64,000 nt of DNA, taken from contig PGCO01000003.1 in NCBI GenBank assembly GCA_002786355.1, forward strand, positions 124,001 to 188,000, written 5' to 3'. Below are positions 416-10,133 of the stretch, piece after piece; position 1 is the first letter of the stretch, and each line of letters starts with the position of its first letter. The translations under genes were made by a program, and so were the position numbers. A model generated the notes under the pieces. The model searched no databases, had not been told where the DNA came from, and saw only the letters and a program-made list of their open reading frames with translations. This DNA comes from Sediminibacterium sp. FEMGT703S (GTDB lineage Bacteria; Bacteroidota; Bacteroidia; Chitinophagales; Chitinophagaceae).

Positions 416-1477
416 TTATGAATTCAATTGATACCAGTCTTGCATTGCTTCTACTAAGCTGGTATTATCCTGTTCTGAACCTACTGTAACCCTTAAGCAT
501 TCATTGCATAATTGTACATTGCTTCTATCTCTTAAAACAATGCCTTTGGTTAATAAAAACTCATATACTTTTCTGGCGTCCTTTATTTTAACCAATAAAA
601 AATTAGCGTCTGAAGGATAAACCATTTGTACGGTAGGCATTGAGTTAAACACTTCAGCTAATGCATCGCGCATATCTACCAATAGCCGAATCATATCATT
701 TACCTGACCAACTTCGTCCAAAGCTTTCAACGCCAACTCTTGTGTAGATTGATTAATATTATAGGGAGGCTTCACTTTATTAAGCACTTCAATAATAGCC
801 GTGGATGCAAAAGCCATACCCAACCTTAATCCTGCCAAGCCCCAGGCCTTGCTAAATGTTTGTAGGACAACCAAGTTAGGATACTCGGTCAGTTCTTGCA
901 CAAATGATTTTTGCTTAGAAAAATTAATATATGCTTCGTCTATCACAACAATACCCTTAAAATTATTCAGTATTGTTTCAATATCTAATCGGTTGATTGA
1001 GTTCCCTGTAGGGTTATTAGGCGAACAGATCCAAATCAATTTGGTATGCTTATCAATAGCTTGCTCTATCTCAACAAGATTTAACTGAAAGTTTGGTAAC
1101 AAAGGAATTTTCTTTAACTCAACATCATTAATATGAGCACTCACTTCGTACATCCCATAAGTTGGAGGACAAATAATCACGTTGTCTGTTGATGGAGTAC
1201 AAAAACTTCTATACAATAAGTCTATGCATTCATCACTTCCATTACCCAAAAAAATATGTTCTGCCGCAATTCCTTTTACAACTGCTAATTTATTTTTTAT
1301 TGCAACTTGGTGAGGGTCAGGATAACGATTGTACCATTTTGACAAAGGAGAGCCCAGGCTATTTTCATTGGCATCTAAAAAGACTTTTGCCTCCCCACTA
1401 AATTCATCTCGAGCAGAGGAATAGGGAGATAATTGAGCAATATTGGGCCTAATAAGTTCATTTAAATTAAACAACAT
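416..1477 (-). CDS. hisC: Histidinol-phosphate aminotransferase
   Basis: 353-residue PLP-dependent aminotransferase that converts imidazole acetol phosphate and glutamate to histidinol phosphate in cytoplasmic histidine synthesis. Visible family marks are the N-terminal NLNELIRPNIAQLSPYSSAR segment, LDANENSLG, the RYPDPHQ motif near residue 50, LGNGSDECIDLL (cofactor phosphate binding), WICSPNNPTGN, VIDEAYINF and the PLP lysine in TFSKAWGLAGLRLG. Length is normal for HisC. It is the third gene of a tight hisG-hisD-hisC operon (6 bases after hisD) and is therefore expected to be under the attenuator upstream of hisG. The identification rests on motifs plus operon context. Confidence 0.96.
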   Translation of the reverse strand: MLFNLNELIRPNIAQLSPYSSARDEFSGEAKVFLDANENSLGSPLSKWYNRYPDPHQVAIKNKLAVVKGIAAEHIFLGNGSDECIDLLYRSFCTPSTDNVIICPPTYGMYEVSAHINDVELKKIPLLPNFQLNLVEIEQAIDKHTKLIWICSPNNPTGNSINRLDIETILNNFKGIVVIDEAYINFSKQKSFVQELTEYPNLVVLQTFSKAWGLAGLRLGMAFASTAIIEVLNKVKPPYNINQSTQELALKALDEVGQVNDMIRLLVDMRDALAEVFNSMPTVQMVYPSDANFLLVKIKDARKVYEFLLTKGIVLRDRSNVQLCNECLRVTVGSEQDNTSLVEAMQDWYQLNS

Positions 1478-1483
1478 AACATT

Positions 1484-2761
1484 CTATTTAAGTCTGACTC
1501 TAACTGCTTCTGCATGTGCTTGAAGGCCTTCTGCTTCTGCCATGGTTTCAACAGTTTTAGCAATAGCAGTTAATCCTTCCTTGGTTAATTGCTGAAAAGT
1601 AATTTTTTTAACAAAGCTATCTACACTTACACCACTATACATTCTAGCATAGGCATTCGTTGGTAAAGTATGATTGGTCCCACTAGCATAATCGCCAACT
1701 GATTCGGGAGAATAATTACCAATAAATACAGAACCAGCATTTGAAATTTGTTCTGCAATTTCATTTGCATTTTGGCATGCTATAATCAGATGTTCTGCAG
1801 CATAATCATTTACTAATTCTACTGCATCAGATAAACTACTCATTAAAACAGCACGACTATTTTGAAGTGCTTGTAATGCCAACTCTTTTCTAGGCAAAAG
1901 CGCTAATTGACTTACTAATGATTGGTTTACAGCATCAATTAATTGTTTAGAAGTGCTAACCAGTAAAACTTGACTGTCTGCACCATGCTCTGCCTGACTT
2001 AATAAGTCAGCTGCAACATAATCGGGAACTGCTGAATCATCGGCTAACACACATACTTCGCTAGGCCCTGCAGGCATATCAATGGCAATCCCATTCAACT
2101 GTACCATCTGCTTTGCAGCAGTTACATACTGATTCCCTGGTCCAAATATTTTATAAACAGATGGCACGGTTTCCGTTCCGTATGCCATTGCTGCAATAGC
2201 TTGTACTCCACCTATTTTGAACAACTGTTTAATACCAACTAAAGTAGCCGCATAAATGATTGCAGGGTGTAAATCTCCATTTTTATTAGGAGGAGAACAA
2301 AGAATGACTTGTTTACATCCAGCTATTTGTGCTGGGATCCCCAACATTAAAATGGTGGAAAATAATGGAGCAGATCCTCCAGGAATATATAATCCCACTT
2401 TATCTATCCCTACCGATTTGCGCCAGCAAAATATACCCGGCATAGTTTCAATCGGCAACGCTTGACTTACCTGTGTTAAATGAAAGTTTCGAATATTCTC
2501 TGCTGCTGTTTCAATAGCTACTTTTAAGTCTGCATCAATTTGCGTTTGAGCATTAAGAATTTCAGCTTCAGTAACTTGAAAACCTTGTAGGCTTACCCCA
2601 TCAAACTGTAATGTGTATTGGCTTATGGCATTATCCCCACCCTGCTTAACTCCGTTTAAAACCGCAGCAACTTTGTCGTTTAGATCATTAGAATCAGCAA
2701 CAGGTCTTTTAATAATATTGCCCCAGTTGGTTTTTTCTGGAAATTGAATAATATTCATCAT
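1484..2761 (-). CDS. hisD: Histidinol dehydrogenase
   Basis: 425-residue zinc-dependent enzyme performing the last two NAD-linked oxidations from histidinol to histidine. Visible motifs include VGLYIPGGSAPLFST, GGVQAIAAMAYGTETVP, KIFGPGNQYVTAAK, the DMPAGPSEVCVLAD block, LLSQAEHGADSQVLLV with catalytic and zinc-binding residues, YAAEHLI, and GDYASGTNHTLPT near the C-terminus. Length fits the family. The stop of hisG lies 3 bases upstream, so translation is probably coupled. Start: ATGATG at 2761; either of the two adjacent methionines could be used. Expected to be co-transcribed with hisG and regulated by the his leader. Confidence 0.97.
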   Translation of the reverse strand: MMNIIQFPEKTNWGNIIKRPVADSNDLNDKVAAVLNGVKQGGDNAISQYTLQFDGVSLQGFQVTEAEILNAQTQIDADLKVAIETAAENIRNFHLTQVSQALPIETMPGIFCWRKSVGIDKVGLYIPGGSAPLFSTILMLGIPAQIAGCKQVILCSPPNKNGDLHPAIIYAATLVGIKQLFKIGGVQAIAAMAYGTETVPSVYKIFGPGNQYVTAAKQMVQLNGIAIDMPAGPSEVCVLADDSAVPDYVAADLLSQAEHGADSQVLLVSTSKQLIDAVNQSLVSQLALLPRKELALQALQNSRAVLMSSLSDAVELVNDYAAEHLIIACQNANEIAEQISNAGSVFIGNYSPESVGDYASGTNHTLPTNAYARMYSGVSVDSFVKKITFQQLTKEGLTAIAKTVETMAEAEGLQAHAEAVRVRLK

Positions 2762-2764
2762 AAT

Positions 2765-3640
2765 TTATATAATCATTTTCTCTATTGGGACAACCAAAAT
2801 GCCTTCTGCACCTGCCGCTTTTAATTGCTCAATAATATTCCAAAAATCATTTTCATTTAATACACTGTGAACACTGCTCCAACCTTCTGTTGCCAAAGGA
2901 AGAACAGTAGGACTTTTCATGCCAGGTAATAATCCTATAATTTCATCTAATTTATTATTAGGAGCATTCAACAATATATACTTATTATTCTTCGCTTTTT
3001 TAACAGATTGGATGCGAAAAATAAGTCTTTGTAATAATTGCTGTTGTAGTTCATTCAATAAGTTATTTTTAATTAAAACAGCTTGTGACTCAAAAATCAC
3101 TTCCACTTCTTTTAACCCATTCATAAATAAGGTTGATCCACTACTCACCAAATCACAGATTGCATCAGCTAAACCTATACCAGGAGCAATTTCTACACTG
3201 CCGCTGATTTCATGAATTTCTGCATCAATTCCTTTTGTTTTTAAAAAATTGGATACAATCACGGGATAACTAGTGGCAATCTTTTTATTCTGTAAAAACT
3301 GCGCACTTTCATATACTTCATTTCGCTGCACTGCCATACTGAGCCTACACTTTCCAAAACCTAGCTTTTCTTGAATTTCTACTTTTTTATTTTTTTCAAA
3401 AACCACGTTCTCTCCAACAAATCCAATATCAGCAACACCATCCTCAACGTATTGCGGGATATCATCGTCTCGCAAGAAAAACACTTCAATCGGAAAATTA
3501 GTTGCATCTGCTTTTAATTTGTTGACCCCATTGCTGATATCTATCCCACATTCCTTCAACAAACGCATTGAGTCATCGTGCAATCTTCCACTCTTTTGAA
3601 TGGCCAATCTCAATTTGCTGTTTTGATTATTATTTTTCAT
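2765..3640 (-). CDS. hisG: ATP phosphoribosyltransferase, long form
   Basis: 291-residue first enzyme of histidine synthesis, joining ATP and PRPP. N-terminal LRLAIQKSGRLHDDSMRLL, the FLRDDDIPQYVEDGVADIGFVGENV binding-protein-like segment (written here as one family hallmark split around residue 55-80), and the PRPP loop DAICDLVSSGSTL near residue 155 are visible. The final 80 or so residues (ILLNAPNNKLDEIIGLLPGM to the end) form the regulatory ACT-like domain of the long HisG form, so no HisZ partner should be needed and feedback inhibition by histidine is expected. First structural gene of the operon; the attenuator terminator ends 25 bases before its ATG. Confidence 0.97.
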   Translation of the reverse strand: MKNNNQNSKLRLAIQKSGRLHDDSMRLLKECGIDISNGVNKLKADATNFPIEVFFLRDDDIPQYVEDGVADIGFVGENVVFEKNKKVEIQEKLGFGKCRLSMAVQRNEVYESAQFLQNKKIATSYPVIVSNFLKTKGIDAEIHEISGSVEIAPGIGLADAICDLVSSGSTLFMNGLKEVEVIFESQAVLIKNNLLNELQQQLLQRLIFRIQSVKKAKNNKYILLNAPNNKLDEIIGLLPGMKSPTVLPLATEGWSSVHSVLNENDFWNIIEQLKAAGAEGILVVPIEKMII

Positions 3641-3664
3641 ATTTATTTTTTACTGATGTTAAGA

Positions 3665-3693
3665 CAAAAAAAAAGCTTACCGGGTGGTAAGCT
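3665..3693 (-). terminator. Attenuator terminator of the his operon
   Basis: Read on the minus strand: AGCTTACC, loop ACCC, GGTAAGCT, then nine T. The 8-bp stem is perfect (3674-3681 with 3686-3693) and is followed at once by the T tract (3666-3674, sharing its first base with the stem). It lies between the histidine-rich leader ORF and hisG, so if it works as drawn it stops transcription before the structural genes. Confidence 0.9.
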
Positions 3694-3725
3694 AGTGTTT
3701 AATATATTAGTACAAATACACCGAT

Positions 3726-3732
3726 GCCTACC
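3726..3732 (-). promoter_or_regulatory. Predicted antiterminator arm of the his leader
   Basis: The minus-strand sequence GGTAGGC, overlapping the last glycine and stop codon of the leader ORF, can pair over seven bases (one G-U) with GCTTACC, the 5' arm of the terminator (3686-3692). A ribosome stalled on the histidine codons (3740-3763) leaves this arm free, which would block terminator formation. A ribosome that reaches the TAG stop covers it and lets the terminator fold. Pairing was read by eye, without an energy calculation. Confidence 0.7.
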
Positions 3733-3778
3733 CTTTGGGATGCATATGATGGTGATGTATATGTAGGCTCTTTATCAT
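3728..3778 (-). CDS. hisL: Histidine-rich leader peptide of the his operon
   Basis: A 17-codon ORF encoding MIKSLHIHHHHMHPKG and a TAG stop. Six of the sixteen residues are histidine, with four in a row (codons 8-11). It sits between a strong Bacteroidetes-type promoter and an intrinsic terminator directly upstream of hisG-hisD-hisC, the textbook arrangement for attenuation by histidyl-tRNA availability. An in-frame TAG lies seven codons upstream, inside the -7 box, so the ATG at 3778 is the only plausible start. No Shine-Dalgarno sequence is present and the predicted transcript begins only a few bases before the ATG. The symbol is used by analogy with enterobacterial hisL; there is no sequence homology claim. 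Confidence 0.88.
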   Translation of the reverse strand: MIKSLHIHHHHMHPKG

Positions 3779-3785
3779 TGAGTTG

Positions 3786-3817
3786 CAAAACTAAGTTGCT
3801 ATTTCAATAATGACAAA
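3786..3817 (-). promoter_or_regulatory. Promoter of the his operon
   Basis: On the minus strand TTTG (3814-3817) is followed after 20 bases by TAGTTTTG (3786-3793). This matches the Bacteroidetes primary sigma consensus of a -33 TTG/TTTG and a -7 TAnnTTTG. The start of transcription should fall about 3 to 7 bases later, essentially at the ATG of the leader peptide. Confidence 0.78.
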
Positions 3818-3908
3818 TATTTTTTCAGGATCTACCTTAAGCTGAATTTACTAGACTAATTATTGGTAATTTGAGCACCATTGAATTGCTCAATTAAATT
3901 AAGCTAAC

Positions 3909-6326
3909 ATGAAAATGATTAAACATTGCTTGACTGTATTATTACTTTTTATTAATACAGCATTGGTGATTGCCCAAGACGCAGCCAGTTACCAAACCCC
4001 ACCTAAAGTAATTGCAGATTTATTACTTGCCAAACCTACACCATCGGTGAGTATAGACGGAAAAGCTATTTGGATGTTACTTTCTGAAAGAAATTCATAC
4101 CCTACTGTTGAAGAATTGGGGCAACCTGAAATTAAGGTAGCTGGATTAAGACTTAATCCCAATAATTTTTCTCCCAGCAGACAAACTTTTATCAATAATT
4201 TTTTATTGAAGAATTTAAAAGAGAATAAAGTTTATACCATTACTGGGTTACCAGCAAATTTATTGGCGGGATCAGTAACATGGAGTCCTACTGAAAATAA
4301 GATTGCATTTACCCATACAAGTAACAACAAAGTTGAATTGTACGTAATTGATGTTGCTACCAAAAAAGCTAGTTTAATTAGCAAAAGAGCACTAAACACT
4401 GTTTTAGGCAGCCCTTATACATGGGTAGACGACAATACCATTTTATATAAATCTGCTGTATCTATTGCTGCCAATGCTCCTAAAAAGCCCATCACACCAA
4501 AAGGGCCAACTATTCAGCAAAACTTGGGAAAAGCAGCTCCTAGTCCTACCTATCAAGACTTAATCAAAAGCCCATATGATGAACAACTATTTCAATTTTA
4601 TGCTACATCACAATTAGTTATAAATAAAAATGGAGTAGAAACCCTATCTGGAAAGCCATGTATTTTAAGCAGTTTTAGCTTATCGCCAGATAAAAAGTTT
4701 TTACTACAAAAACAATTACAACATCCTTTCTCTTATTTAGTAACTGCAAACGGTTTTCCTTCTAAAATGTTGGTAACCGAATTAACGGGTAAAACAGTAA
4801 AAGTTTTAGCAGAATTGCCTTCAACGGAAGGTACCCCTTCAGGATATGACAACACTCAAAATGTTCCAAGAAGTTTTGATTGGAGAGATGACGAAGCCGC
4901 TACCGTTACTTGGGCTGAACCACTAGATAGCGGGCTAATTAAAAAACAAGTTGAATATAGAGACGCTGTATACGCAATTTCAGCTCCATTTGAGGGAAAT
5001 GCCAAACTCTTGTTTAAGACTAAATTAAGATATGGAGGAACCACTTGGGGAAATGAAAATGTTGCATTGGTGAGTGAGATTTCAAGAAGCAAACAATTGA
5101 TCAGGGTTAATTTATTCAATAGTAGCAAAGGAAGCATGGAATTACTGTTTGAGCGAAATCAAACAGACGCATACGGAAACCCTGGCTCACCAGTTACCAA
5201 TAAAAATAAGTATGGCAGAAACGTAATCACAACTATTGACAATGGCACCAAATTATTAATGAATAATACAACGGGATCTTCTCCTAAAGGGGATCTACCT
5301 TTCTTAGCAAGGTTTGATTTAGCCACTAAACAAAATGAAGTCATCTGGAGATGCAATGAAGGAGTTTATGAATATATTGTAGATATTTTAGACGCAAATA
5401 ATTTAACGGTATTAAGCAGAAAAGAGTCTCAAAAAGACGTACCCAACTATTATATCAAGAATCTTAAACTCAAAATGGCCGATCAGGCAATCACTAATTT
5501 TACCAATCCTTATCCAGCTTTAGAAGGAGTGATTAAAGAAAAAATAAAATATAAAAGAGCAGATGGTGTAGACCTAACTGGTGATCTTTATTTACCTGCT
5601 GGGTATACAAAAGAGAAAGGGCCTTTACCATTAGTTATTTGGGCTTATCCAAGAGAATTCAACTCTGCGGCAGATGCAGCGCAAATAAGAGGTAGTAAAG
5701 ATAGATTCACCACTTTAAGCTGGGGCTCACCCATTTACTATGTTACACAAGGTTACGCAGTATTAGACAATGCGGAAATGCCCATCGTTGCTTCGGGCAA
5801 TGACAAAAAACCCAATGACAATTTTATCGAACAATTAAAATTGAACGCAGAATCAGCCATTGGGCATTTATCAGGATTAGGTATTGCTGACAAAAACAAA
5901 GTGGCAGTGGGTGGACATAGTTATGGTGCTTTTATGACTGCAAATTTATTAGCACATACCAACTGGTTTAAAGCCGGTATTGCAAGAAGTGGCGCTTATA
6001 ATAGAACCCTTACTCCTTTTGGATTTCAAAATGAAGACAGAACCTATTGGCAAGCTCCTGAATTGTATTACAATATGAGTCCATTTAGTTATGCGGATAA
6101 AATTAAAACCCCCATTTTGTTAATACATGGAGAAGCCGACGACAATACTGGAACCTATCCTATTAATAGTGAGCGATTGTTTGCTGCAATCAAAGGAAAT
6201 GGTGGAACAGTTAGGTTTGTATACCTACCTTATGAAGCACATGGCTATAGAGGAAAAGAAAATGTGTTACACACACTTTGGGAACAATTTCAATGGCTAG
6301 AGAAATACGTAAAGAATACAAAATAA
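3909..6326 (+). CDS. Exported S9 family serine peptidase (prolyl oligopeptidase fold)
   Basis: 805 residues with an N-terminal signal peptide (cut near VIAQDAA), a beta-propeller of about 500 residues, and a C-terminal alpha/beta-hydrolase domain. The catalytic serine is in GGHSYGAF (Ser671), the aspartate in HGEADDNTG (about Asp744) and the histidine in YEAHGYRG (about His778). The order and the ending resemble the S9D glutamyl-peptidase-like group common in Bacteroidetes. It probably acts in the periplasm or at the cell surface on peptides; the specificity is inferred, not shown. It diverges from the his leader promoter and ends at a bidirectional terminator. Confidence 0.88.
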   Translation: MKMIKHCLTVLLLFINTALVIAQDAASYQTPPKVIADLLLAKPTPSVSIDGKAIWMLLSERNSYPTVEELGQPEIKVAGLRLNPNNFSPSRQTFINNFLLKNLKENKVYTITGLPANLLAGSVTWSPTENKIAFTHTSNNKVELYVIDVATKKASLISKRALNTVLGSPYTWVDDNTILYKSAVSIAANAPKKPITPKGPTIQQNLGKAAPSPTYQDLIKSPYDEQLFQFYATSQLVINKNGVETLSGKPCILSSFSLSPDKKFLLQKQLQHPFSYLVTANGFPSKMLVTELTGKTVKVLAELPSTEGTPSGYDNTQNVPRSFDWRDDEAATVTWAEPLDSGLIKKQVEYRDAVYAISAPFEGNAKLLFKTKLRYGGTTWGNENVALVSEISRSKQLIRVNLFNSSKGSMELLFERNQTDAYGNPGSPVTNKNKYGRNVITTIDNGTKLLMNNTTGSSPKGDLPFLARFDLATKQNEVIWRCNEGVYEYIVDILDANNLTVLSRKESQKDVPNYYIKNLKLKMADQAITNFTNPYPALEGVIKEKIKYKRADGVDLTGDLYLPAGYTKEKGPLPLVIWAYPREFNSAADAAQIRGSKDRFTTLSWGSPIYYVTQGYAVLDNAEMPIVASGNDKKPNDNFIEQLKLNAESAIGHLSGLGIADKNKVAVGGHSYGAFMTANLLAHTNWFKAGIARSGAYNRTLTPFGFQNEDRTYWQAPELYYNMSPFSYADKIKTPILLIHGEADDNTGTYPINSERLFAAIKGNGGTVRFVYLPYEAHGYRGKENVLHTLWEQFQWLEKYVKNTK

Positions 6327-7271: not shown

Positions 7272-10133
7272 TTAATACCCTAGCCCCCAATCTCTTCCTT
7301 TAAGAATAGCAGGAACTCCATCAGCAATCCATTTAGCAGGCTTATCTCCTTTCAATAAATAATCAAAAAATTGTTGTTCGCGAATTTGAATATCTTTTCT
7401 ATTTCTACGCTCAACTAAATTATGGTCTTCGTTATTATAATTCAACATCCATACAGGTTTCCCTAATCTGCGAAGAGCAGTAAACATTTCAATACCTTGA
7501 TACCATGGCACAGCTCCATCGGCATCATTGTGCATAATCACCACAGGCGTTTTCACTTTAGGGAAATGAAACAATGGTGAGTTCTCTATATACAAATTAG
7601 GTTTCTCCCATAAGGTAGCTCCAATTCTACTTTGTGTTTTTTCATATTGAAACTGTCTGTTCAAACCAGTACCCCAACGGATTCCACCATAAGCACTGGT
7701 CATATTGGCAACAGGTGCACCAGCCCATGCAGCAGCATATAGATTGGTGCGAGTGATTAAATGCGCAATTTGATATCCTCCCCAACTTTGGCCCTGCAAT
7801 CCTAATTTGGTACTATCTACATACCCTTTTGCAACCAATGCCCTTGTTCCACTAACAATATAATCATAAGCCCCTTGACCAGGATAACCAGTTTTGTACC
7901 AGATATCTGGAACAAAAACAATATATCCCCTACTTACAAAAAATGGAATATTTAATCTAGAAGGAGTAGGTGCAGGAGCATTATACCCATATAATCCATC
8001 GCTACTTCTTTCATAGAAATAAGCAATCATTGGATACTTTTTCTTTGGATCAAAATCTTCAGGTTTATAAACAATACCCTCAGCTATTTTTCCGGTATAA
8101 GCTTTCCAAGTAAACAACTCTGCAGTACCCCAATTGTAGTTAGCTTGTTGCGGATTAGGCTGGTGTAAAGAAGCAGCATTCTGTACATCTTGTAAAATTG
8201 AGTTGGCCCTCCAATCAATTACAGCAATATTTGAAGAACGCTGAAAAGTCTCCGTTCCAAAACTAATGACTGCAGCATCTTTTGCTTTAGACACAGCAGA
8301 GATTCTCGTGGGTAGAGTTGCATTTGAAGCATTTATTTCAAATAGCGTTCCCATTACATGCGTTTTCAACCCACTGCCTTTATTTTTTTGGTTGAATACA
8401 TTGAATAACAAAGTCTGATCTTTTTTAATAAATCGAGCTTCTCTATCTAAAGTGATATTTCTTAAAACAAGATTATTTTTTCTTCCTAAACCACCAGTAA
8501 TACTGATGGAAGATTTAATTCCCAAAGGATCAATTTGCCAAATATCAAACTGATCATAAATCAATAATGATTCATCATTTTCGATCCAACCAGCTAAACC
8601 GTACGCATTTGGATCATCAGGAACGTCATTTTCAACATCATATAAAGGCATTTTAATATCAGCAGCAATGGAAGCCATTTTTTGGGATTCGCTGTTGTAG
8701 GCACTGTACTTCTTTTTTACCTCATCATAAACAACCAAGAATTTTCCAGTAGAAGAAGGGTAAGTATTCCCTTTTATATTGGCCAAAATAAGCTGTTTAC
8801 TCCCAGTTAAAGGATTGATTGCATATATATCTGAAAATGAAGCACCCTGCCACTGAGAAGCAATTCTTTTTCCCTCGTCGGCAACACCATAAAAAACAGC
8901 CCCATCACCTTCATTGGTTTGAATGATATTTCTAAAAGCAGGGCTACCAATTTGAACTACTGAACCTCTATCAAAATCGAACCTGGCCAAATAAGCCTTA
9001 TTTAATTCTTGCTGTAAATTACGCAACTGTAAGGGTTGTAAATAATCGTCCTTATAATGCCATACATCTACACTTACTCTTTCAAAATCAGGGGTAAGCG
9101 TATCTTTTACAGGTAATATTGGAGCAGTACCAAAAAACAAACGACTTCCCGATTTACTAAAGTTGATTGCTTGCGCATTCTCACTTAAAGTGTAATTATC
9201 AGGCATTCCACTCGTATTTTTTTGCACTAATAAAACTGCGCTATCCGCTCCATTTTTATGATAAAAAAGCTTGTAGAATTTTTGTAACGATTTGGCACTA
9301 CTGTCTCTTTCTGCTATAAATGCCAACTGGTTACCCACTTCATCCATTCTATACCCTTTGGCATCATTAAAACCAGTTAACACAACAGCTGATTTTTTAT
9401 TGAGTAAGTCAACTTTTATTACCTGAGGTTTTACTTTGGCATCGCTTGTTTTTTTGGTAGTTTCAAGCAATAAAATATTCCCTTTTTTATTGAAGAAATA
9501 TTCACTAACCAAATTATATACAACGGTATCCCCAGTTAATAAATGATGAACCACTAAATCAGTACCTTCCTCAAAAGGTTCTGCAGCAGTTCTTGGTGTT
9601 GGGGGAGCAACGGGCGCAGTTGATTTTACAGTGCTATCAGTTTGACCTGTTCTTGGAGCAGGAGTGGCTGGCTTTTTCTCTAAGTGATAGGCTAAAAAAT
9701 TTGCTTGTTCATCTGCAATTTTAAAGCTTTTCACTTGTGCCACTTTAGTGATTTTTCCTGAGTTTAAATCTACCACTGCCAAAGAATCTTTTGGCATTTC
9801 TTCTGGACGCTTCTTTTTAATTTTAGCTTCCCTAGTATCTTTAAAAAAGGGTTTAATTCTACAAATTAAAAAACGACTATTGTCGGTTATATTAGCATTG
9901 TACCCTCTTGCAATCTCAGCAACATTCGAACCATCTTTCTTCTTGATGTACAAATGACCGTCACCTTCTTGGGGTGTAACGGTATAAGCAATATATTTTC
10001 CATCATCGCTAATTAAACGTTCTGAAATATTTTGCCATCCGTCATAAACACTATGGTCTAAAGGTTTTTTTTGACCATAGCTAGAAATGCTTAATAACAA
10101 CAAAACAATAAATGGGGTGATTCTCATGTTCAT
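7272..10133 (-). CDS. Exported S9 family prolyl oligopeptidase-like peptidase
   Basis: 953 residues with signal peptide (MNMRITPFIVLLLLSISSYG), a long propeller region, and a C-terminal hydrolase domain. The nucleophile is in LQGQSWGGYQ (about Ser783), the aspartate in MHNDADGAVPW and the histidine in NNEDHNLVERRNR. The propeller contains a proline-rich low-complexity insertion near residues 150-185 (KKPATPAPRTG and VAPPTPRTA). The GxSWGG form and the late histidine fit dipeptidyl-peptidase IV/acylaminoacyl-peptidase relatives. Length exceeds the 805-residue S9 gene nearby, and the two are not close copies. It shares a divergent 82-base region with the TonB-dependent receptor, which suggests linked peptide use. 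Confidence 0.88.
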   Translation of the reverse strand: MNMRITPFIVLLLLSISSYGQKKPLDHSVYDGWQNISERLISDDGKYIAYTVTPQEGDGHLYIKKKDGSNVAEIARGYNANITDNSRFLICRIKPFFKDTREAKIKKKRPEEMPKDSLAVVDLNSGKITKVAQVKSFKIADEQANFLAYHLEKKPATPAPRTGQTDSTVKSTAPVAPPTPRTAAEPFEEGTDLVVHHLLTGDTVVYNLVSEYFFNKKGNILLLETTKKTSDAKVKPQVIKVDLLNKKSAVVLTGFNDAKGYRMDEVGNQLAFIAERDSSAKSLQKFYKLFYHKNGADSAVLLVQKNTSGMPDNYTLSENAQAINFSKSGSRLFFGTAPILPVKDTLTPDFERVSVDVWHYKDDYLQPLQLRNLQQELNKAYLARFDFDRGSVVQIGSPAFRNIIQTNEGDGAVFYGVADEGKRIASQWQGASFSDIYAINPLTGSKQLILANIKGNTYPSSTGKFLVVYDEVKKKYSAYNSESQKMASIAADIKMPLYDVENDVPDDPNAYGLAGWIENDESLLIYDQFDIWQIDPLGIKSSISITGGLGRKNNLVLRNITLDREARFIKKDQTLLFNVFNQKNKGSGLKTHVMGTLFEINASNATLPTRISAVSKAKDAAVISFGTETFQRSSNIAVIDWRANSILQDVQNAASLHQPNPQQANYNWGTAELFTWKAYTGKIAEGIVYKPEDFDPKKKYPMIAYFYERSSDGLYGYNAPAPTPSRLNIPFFVSRGYIVFVPDIWYKTGYPGQGAYDYIVSGTRALVAKGYVDSTKLGLQGQSWGGYQIAHLITRTNLYAAAWAGAPVANMTSAYGGIRWGTGLNRQFQYEKTQSRIGATLWEKPNLYIENSPLFHFPKVKTPVVIMHNDADGAVPWYQGIEMFTALRRLGKPVWMLNYNNEDHNLVERRNRKDIQIREQQFFDYLLKGDKPAKWIADGVPAILKGRDWGLGY

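Follow-up and report, generated by a model that had tools for sequence, protein, structure and literature searches.

The hisG-hisD-hisC locus and its leader region

The window, that is, the whole 64-kb stretch of DNA that was analysed, carries hisG, hisD and hisC on its minus strand, each scoring above the cut-off of its NCBIfam model. They are preceded, at 3817-3666 of the same strand, by what reads from the sequence as a complete predicted attenuator (Table 1). Read along the minus strand, the parts follow one another as TTTG, TAGTTTTG, the leader, GGTAGGC, the inner helix, GCTTACC, GGTAAGC (3681-3675), the T run and the hisG ATG at 3640. The leader peptide MIKSLHIHHHHMHPKG, with six His of which four are consecutive, runs from an ATG at 3778-3776 to a TAG at 3730-3728, with 87 nt between its stop codon and the hisG start. 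The GGTAGGC arm follows 7 nt after the last His codon and 13 nt after the HHHH run. When ORFs of 6-50 codons were inspected on both strands of the window, only the his leader was found to bear HHHH. An earlier note on this DNA had described a promoter, a 16-residue leader with six His (four consecutive), an 8-bp terminator with nine T, a 7-bp alternative pairing of GGTAGGC with GCTTACC and, behind them, hisGDC. All of these parts were recovered: the genes by NCBIfam, the alternative pairing with one G-U, the terminator with the first T of its run inside the stem, and the promoter as one of the Bacteroidota -7/-33 type (TTTG and TAGTTTTG). Features that the earlier note did not mention are the predicted near-leaderless start, the inner antiterminator helix, a possible helix between leader and arm, and the 13-nt gap shared with most relatives.

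Table 1. Positions of the his genes and of the parts of the leader region in the window
Feature	Position	Strand	Basis or remark
-33 promoter box TTTG	3814..3817	-	sequence; Bacteroidota -7/-33 type
-7 promoter box TAGTTTTG (TAnnTTTG)	3786..3793	-	sequence; box position rule of PMC9723704
leader peptide gene MIKSLHIHHHHMHPKG	3728..3778	-	16 codons, predicted near-leaderless
HHHH, codons 8-11	3746..3757	-	expected main stall site
segment 1, possible protector: TACA 3765-3762 and ATACATC 3760-3754, pairing with 3722-3711	3754..3765	-	MFE of naked leader
segment 2, antiterminator 5' arm GGTAGGC, overlapping the leader stop codon	3726..3732	-	sequence; folding; cross-family test
inner antiterminator helix, 5' arm GGTGT	3718..3722	-	folding
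inner antiterminator helix, 3' arm ACACT	3694..3698	-	folding
segment 3, GCTTACC, common to antiterminator and terminator	3686..3692	-	sequence; folding
terminator hairpin (segments 3:4), stem AGCTTACC/GGTAAGCT, 8 pairs, loop ACCC	3674..3693	-	sequence; covariation
terminator T run, 9 T, first T inside stem	3666..3674	-	sequence
hisG, first regulated gene	2765..3640	-	NCBIfam TIGR00070, 195 bits
hisD	1484..2761	-	NCBIfam TIGR00069, 527 bits
hisC	416..1477	-	NCBIfam TIGR01141, 367 bits

The upstream neighbour is a divergent gene for an S9-type peptidase (3909-6326, plus strand, Pfam PF00326), and the terminator therefore serves no upstream transcript. Behind hisC lies a gene (window 389-1 and further left) whose first 129 aa gave no Pfam family match, and further left follow a cytochrome c gene, hisB (376 aa), a trp leader and trpE. 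There is no room for a leader of hisB's own, as hisB starts 2 nt after the cytochrome gene. Foreign genes seem to break up the series of his genes.

A scan with the sigma-70 consensus gave two sites, neither of which was the TTTG/TAGTTTTG promoter; the -33 box was read with the Bacteroidota promoter consensus (PMC7366714). Since sigma-A boxes occupy positions -12 to -5 (PMC9723704), the transcript of the window should start at ~3781, with a 5'UTR of ~3 nt. In other words, the leader is predicted to be near-leaderless, with its start codon ~3 nt from the transcript start. Shine-Dalgarno initiation of the kind used by a classical leader was not found upstream of this start codon, and the missing site counts only against the enteric form of an attenuator. 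Leaderless mRNAs are rare in the phylum, accounting for 5.5% in F. psychrophilum (PMC9723704), and 5'UTRs under 10 nt amount to 3.7% in B. thetaiotaomicron (PMC7366714). This rarity is a point against the attenuator proposed below.

Conservation in the genus and in near relatives

A HisG scan of species genomes yielded 339 loci, the best 80 of which were kept as nearer relatives; the three nearest named records, with 97-98% hisG identity, were MAGs, two of them labelled Sediminibacterium. In all of these best 80 of the 339 loci (80/80), hisG was preceded by a His-rich leader and a terminator. The leaders of this set start with ATG (78) or GTG (2), are 9-21 codons long and contain exactly four His in a row in 51/80 cases. 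The gap between the His run and the arm was 13 nt in 57 of the best 80, 12 nt in 5, 10 nt in 4 and of another length in 7, while the arm pattern was not found in 7. As for the promoter, TTTG was located 18-20 nt ahead of the -7 box in 66/80 of the same best 80 loci, and the -7 box ended 4-12 nt before the start codon in 70/80, giving a 5'UTR of 0-8 nt; of the remaining loci, one has the box 1 nt before the start codon chosen, and 9 have no box that fits the pattern. With a second box rule, the placement was near-leaderless in 68/80 of the set. In L095, L099, L108 and L110, all labelled Chitinophaga, TTTG lies 17-20 nt before the start. The His codons of 47 leaders comprised 184 CAT and 46 CAC. 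Since the third base varies, it is the amino acid that is conserved and not merely the nucleotide sequence; the exchange of CAT and CAC is consistent with translation of the leader.

The alignment used below (A1) consists of the window and 46 of the 80 loci, picked by hand. Before counting, 34 loci were set aside, either as rows nearly identical to others or because their arms differed, and many of those with differing arms are of Chitinophaga. From these 47 sequences a covariance model (R1) was built in which only the terminator is represented by pairs and the rest by sequence. R1 matched in 93 of 101 genus genomes, and in 92 the match was strong (E 3.3e-10 or better), with one per genome. 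All strong matches (92/92) lay directly upstream of hisG, at 4-105 nt. A hisG gene was present in 94 of the 101 genomes, 92 of which had a strong match. The two others were G004, where hisG is in pieces, and G051, where the hisG contig breaks off at base 7410 and the edge of another contig carries a cut His leader. The conserved His-rich ORF and terminator which the earlier note had asked for upstream of hisG in relatives were present both in the best 80 of the 339 loci and at every strong R1 site. Weak R1 matches had E values from 7e-6 to 1e-3, and the twelve inspected corresponded to lysine-rich leaders at asd (8), the His leader of G051 (1) and other terminators (3). A comparison of eight weak R1 sites with Rfam gave nothing at gathering scores.

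Alternative pairing of the leader RNA and the proposed switch

GGTAGGC (3732-3726) and GCTTACC (3692-3686) form 7 pairs, and the antiterminator stretch 3732-3682 folded with -14.9 kcal/mol, a value equalled by 1/200 shuffles. When GGTAG was removed, the RNA folded with the terminator, at -14.8 kcal/mol. As both energies are nearly the same, the structure formed first can decide the outcome. With both arms present, the minimum of the window RNA was the antiterminator and its centroid the terminator.

In the 47 sequences, the terminator pairs were standard in 421/421 cells and showed 37 two-sided changes, a result for which 0/500 shuffles scored as high. The antiterminator was paired to 90.1%, versus 38-48% when it was slid. 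Its outer arm is almost invariant within the family and none of its pairs (0) had a two-sided change, and the covariation score of the whole antiterminator structure was reached by 281/500 shuffles. Compensating stem changes, which the earlier note had proposed to look for, were found in the terminator and not in the outer antiterminator arm. Since this arm did not covary within the family, cross-family and cross-operon tests were used. The possible protector, in which leader codons pair with GGTGTTTTGTG, was paired to 79.9% versus 24-57% when slid, with 27 two-sided changes and 0/500 shuffles as high, and it was weak in foldings of untranslated RNA. Another pairing, GCCTAC (3768-3763) with GTAGGC, is perfect in the window and was dropped; by eye, it is kept only in the nearest relatives.

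The 47 sequences were also folded with a ribosome masking an assumed 12 nt 3' of the A codon. With a stall at the His run and arm 4 not yet made, the antiterminator index was above 0.5 in 47/47. A ribosome placed at the stop codon gave a terminator index above 0.5 in 47/47, which is partly so by construction, as arm 2 is masked in this case. When the full RNA was folded with the ribosome on the first His-run codon, the terminator index exceeded the antiterminator index in 36/47 sequences, including the window, and therefore a kinetic head start of the antiterminator must be assumed. An antiterminator that forms before arm 4 is made is also what textbook attenuation involves. The full RNA without a ribosome took the terminator fold in 45/47 sequences. 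In untranslated RNA before arm 4, the antiterminator index was still above 0.5 in 30/47, and for this reason the protector helix is not decisive.

The anatomy and conservation described above are observed, and they make it very probable that the element would control the hisGDC operon as a ribosome-mediated transcription attenuator that responds to histidine. According to its promoter box, RNA polymerase is predicted to start ~3 nt before the leader start codon, and a ribosome would load at this near-leaderless start. If charged tRNA-His were scarce, the ribosome would stall on the His run and GGTAGGC would stay free; it could then pair with GCTTACC, together with the inner helix, so that the terminator would be blocked and hisGDC transcribed. 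If histidine were plentiful, the ribosome would reach the stop codon inside GGTAGGC and cover this arm, whereupon GCTTACC would pair with GGTAAGC and transcription would stop at the T run. We infer the stalling, the termination and the histidine dependence of both from these structures. As expected of an attenuator, the predicted antiterminator is incompatible with the terminator, and its first arm is located past the stretch that a ribosome halted at the regulatory codons would occupy. In the case of an untranslated leader, full-length RNA folds with the terminator and expression would therefore probably be low. A point against the attenuator is that, in the window leader, stalling at the last His codon (codon 13) would leave the arm partly covered by the ribosome.

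Alternatively, translation of the leader could act on reinitiation at hisG or on its ribosome supply, as an 'antenna' (PMC4833913), with the hairpin being only an RNA-stability element. Short leader genes near structural genes are described in that paper as frequent in Bacteroidetes. However, the leader stop, 87 nt before hisG, is beyond the Bacteroidetes peak of 11-14 nt given there, and a terminator with a T run and a matching antiterminator arm would be superfluous, and we regard this explanation as very unlikely.

Related leaders and known systems

In a phylum sample of 148 genomes, 128 had hisG, and 90 upstream regions (30 loci and 60 covering genera) were used. A leader with a terminator was found in 37/90 of these hisG upstream regions, namely in 24/33 from the class of the window and in 13/57 from elsewhere, and on the reverse strand a His-rich leader with a terminator was found in 0/90. 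One locus of family f5 missed by the scan (L161) has, by eye, a terminator with a longer loop. The arms are GGTAGGC/GCTTACC in the family of the window, TCAAGCG/CGTTTGA in f5 and AGACGG/CCGTCT in f4. Over the 37 loci, which belong to 9 families (three with a single locus), arm 2 had a mean pairing score of 14.0 with its own terminator arm and of 10.3 with swapped arms, and the observed pairing sum was reached in 18/20000 family permutations. Across families, then, the leader-end arm appears to tend to change together with the terminator arm. There are counter-examples: in f14, f21 and f27 a foreign arm gives a higher score than the own arm, f1 ties with one foreign arm, and among single loci the match with the own arm was poor in L118, L120, L133, L134, L175, L127 and L176 and middling in L130 and L112. 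Therefore, not every such site need work alike. Nor is the near-leaderless start phylum-wide, since the box lies 17-27 nt before the start in 6/14 f5 loci, 2 or 7 nt before it in 2/14, and was not found in 6/14. In f21 such a start is seen again, as 6/15 loci have His leaders whose GTG start codon follows 4 nt after the box.

In families f3 and f21, His-rich leaders occur for which a terminator was mostly not detected. Before hisG of f3, no terminator was detected by the scan in 5/5 loci (L136, L146, L148, L152, L159), and in f21 none was detected for 14/15 His leaders (L113-L115, L128, L135, L173, L178 and others), in which the -7 box is often followed immediately by a GTG start codon. Control of these leaders is perhaps Rho-dependent or translational, and another read-out of a His leader may therefore exist in the phylum. 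The two families speak for a reading in which the leader of the window, too, would work through Rho-dependent termination or translational control, with the intrinsic hairpin as a secondary feature; but the terminator is present in 80/80 of the best 80 of the 339 loci and its pairs covary, and we give this reading hardly any probability.

A comparable arrangement to the his attenuator was observed before other genes of the same genome. Its trpE is preceded by MNLMNKHWWWHSNSSRGL (WWW) and a terminator (G000:C10 ~121400-121550, L202), and its pheA by MQTAINNWFYSFYYFFFMKRSRVQFAKA (FYSFYYFFF) and a terminator (G000:C10 ~407800-408000, L205). The trp leader has TTTG 4 nt before its start, without a full TAnnTTTG box, and the phe leader has a -7 box 7 nt before its start; both are near-leaderless by prediction. 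These leaders were checked in same-genus loci, plus two pheA loci of other families. The WWW leader and terminator were found in 16/19 same-genus trpE loci, the other three being cut or misplaced by contig edges, and the Phe leader in 13/14 same-genus pheA loci, the other one being clipped; the two pheA loci of other families had no Phe leader. Before asd, a lysine leader with a terminator was present in 17/23 same-genus loci (two were misplaced by contig edges) and in 0/7 loci that belong to the same order but to other families; three same-genus loci have asd directly behind its neighbour. Contig edges made trpE L238, L240 and L245, pheA L224 and asd L297 and L300 uninformative. In the 2.9 kb upstream of ilvD and of a match to the bifunctional thrA domain in the genome of the window, the scan found no leader with a terminator; the first genes of these operons may lie outside.

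The asd leader is of the KHTKRIKKP type and mostly near-leaderless, with the matching antiterminator arm GGAAGGT (L262-L265, L268-L270, L273, L279-L281, L283-L290 and others). In the genome of the window (G000:C5, L282), asd is without the promoter and the lysine leader, and a bare terminator lies between the upstream gene and asd; all parts of the element are present in the close relative G061. The lysine-rich leader with its terminator is a candidate lysine attenuator. Riboswitches are the textbook solution for lysine regulation, and in the open-access literature searched we found no description of a lysine leader attenuator, which may be in print elsewhere.

The cross-operon test compared 48 his rows (all 47 of A1 and a second copy of the window row), 12 of 13 phe, 12 of 16 trp and 16 of 17 lys rows. 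The region after the stall site scored 17.2 (his), 18.2 (phe), 18.0 (trp) and 16.8 (lys) against its own terminator arm and 9.5-13.5 against the arm of another operon. We consider it moderately likely that Sediminibacterium and its relatives possess a network of mostly near-leaderless leader-peptide attenuators of one plan, sensing His, Trp, Phe and, via the asd leader, also lysine, and that, jointly with this, the plan is one in which arm 2 copies terminator arm 4, mostly 10-16 nt after the stall codons. That the His-rich peptide has a job of its own, e.g. metal binding, next to an independent terminator would account for the His codons kept in 80/80 of the best 80 of the 339 loci, but the rest of the peptide varies, the distance from the His run to the arm is near-fixed (13 nt in 57/80 of the same set), the strong R1 sites of the genus all lie before hisG (92/92) and elements of the same plan at trpE, pheA and asd have Trp, Phe and Lys runs instead; we consider this idea very improbable.

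Bacteroidota do not rely on Shine-Dalgarno sites and have promoters of their own, and the question at stake is how ribosomes are loaded onto a leader in step with RNA polymerase; a leader near the transcript tip would be a simple and testable answer. The element also offers a reporter for histidine (and for Trp, Phe and perhaps Lys) in a phylum short of genetic tools. Our results suggest that parts of the Bacteroidota make widespread use of ribosome stalling for amino-acid attenuation, and within the wider network the lysine/asd version is the most novel lead.

Regarding the remark on novelty in the Bacteroidetes in the earlier note, no experimental test of such his attenuation was found in the literature searched, which was mostly open-access, although attenuation had been predicted before in Flavobacterium psychrophilum. 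In this species, transcriptome data were reported to give 'strong clues' that amino-acid operons are attenuated by way of leader peptides, and a structured 5' element without an Rfam match was described upstream of hisG in it and in other Flavobacteriaceae (PMC9723704). This element belongs to the same phylum and the same gene as that of the window; the main text of the paper gives neither its sequence nor a mechanism. Family f5, with the arms TCAAGCG/CGTTTGA, is perhaps this group of Flavobacteriaceae, which is a guess. PMC4833913 refers to a survey in which attenuation was compared (Lopatovskaya 2010). For trp, the Bacteroid-trp motif RF01692 is a predicted cis-regulatory RNA of Bacteroidetes (PMC2864571), the name of which suggests a link to trp genes; it did not match the trp leader of the genome of the window (E up to 1). 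Trp_leader RF00513 matched this leader weakly (E 0.46, 22.7 bits versus a cut-off of 41), and no Rfam model exceeded its cut-off at the trp or the phe leader locus.

Among the leaderless attenuators of Actinobacteria, an experimentally tested one is that of ilvBNC in Corynebacterium glutamicum (PMC11857589). Its transcript starts one nucleotide from the leader start codon, and it has terminator, antiterminator and anti-antiterminator hairpins, an arrangement that the predicted element of the window resembles. It differs in amino acids, phylum and promoter.

The likeness to the his attenuator of E. coli and Salmonella (hisL) lies in the His-run leader, the terminator, the competing antiterminator and an operon in which hisG comes first. 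The enteric leader, His_leader (RF00514) in Rfam, has seven His in a row, versus four in that of the window. In window 3400-4200, neither RF00514 nor another relevant Rfam model matched with E up to 5, all matches being at chance level. Compared with hisL, the element of the window is near-leaderless by prediction, without a Shine-Dalgarno site, made of fewer RNA segments and served by a Bacteroidota promoter. It is a known kind of switch, and what is unusual about it is a leader that begins, by prediction, very close to the 5' end of the RNA.
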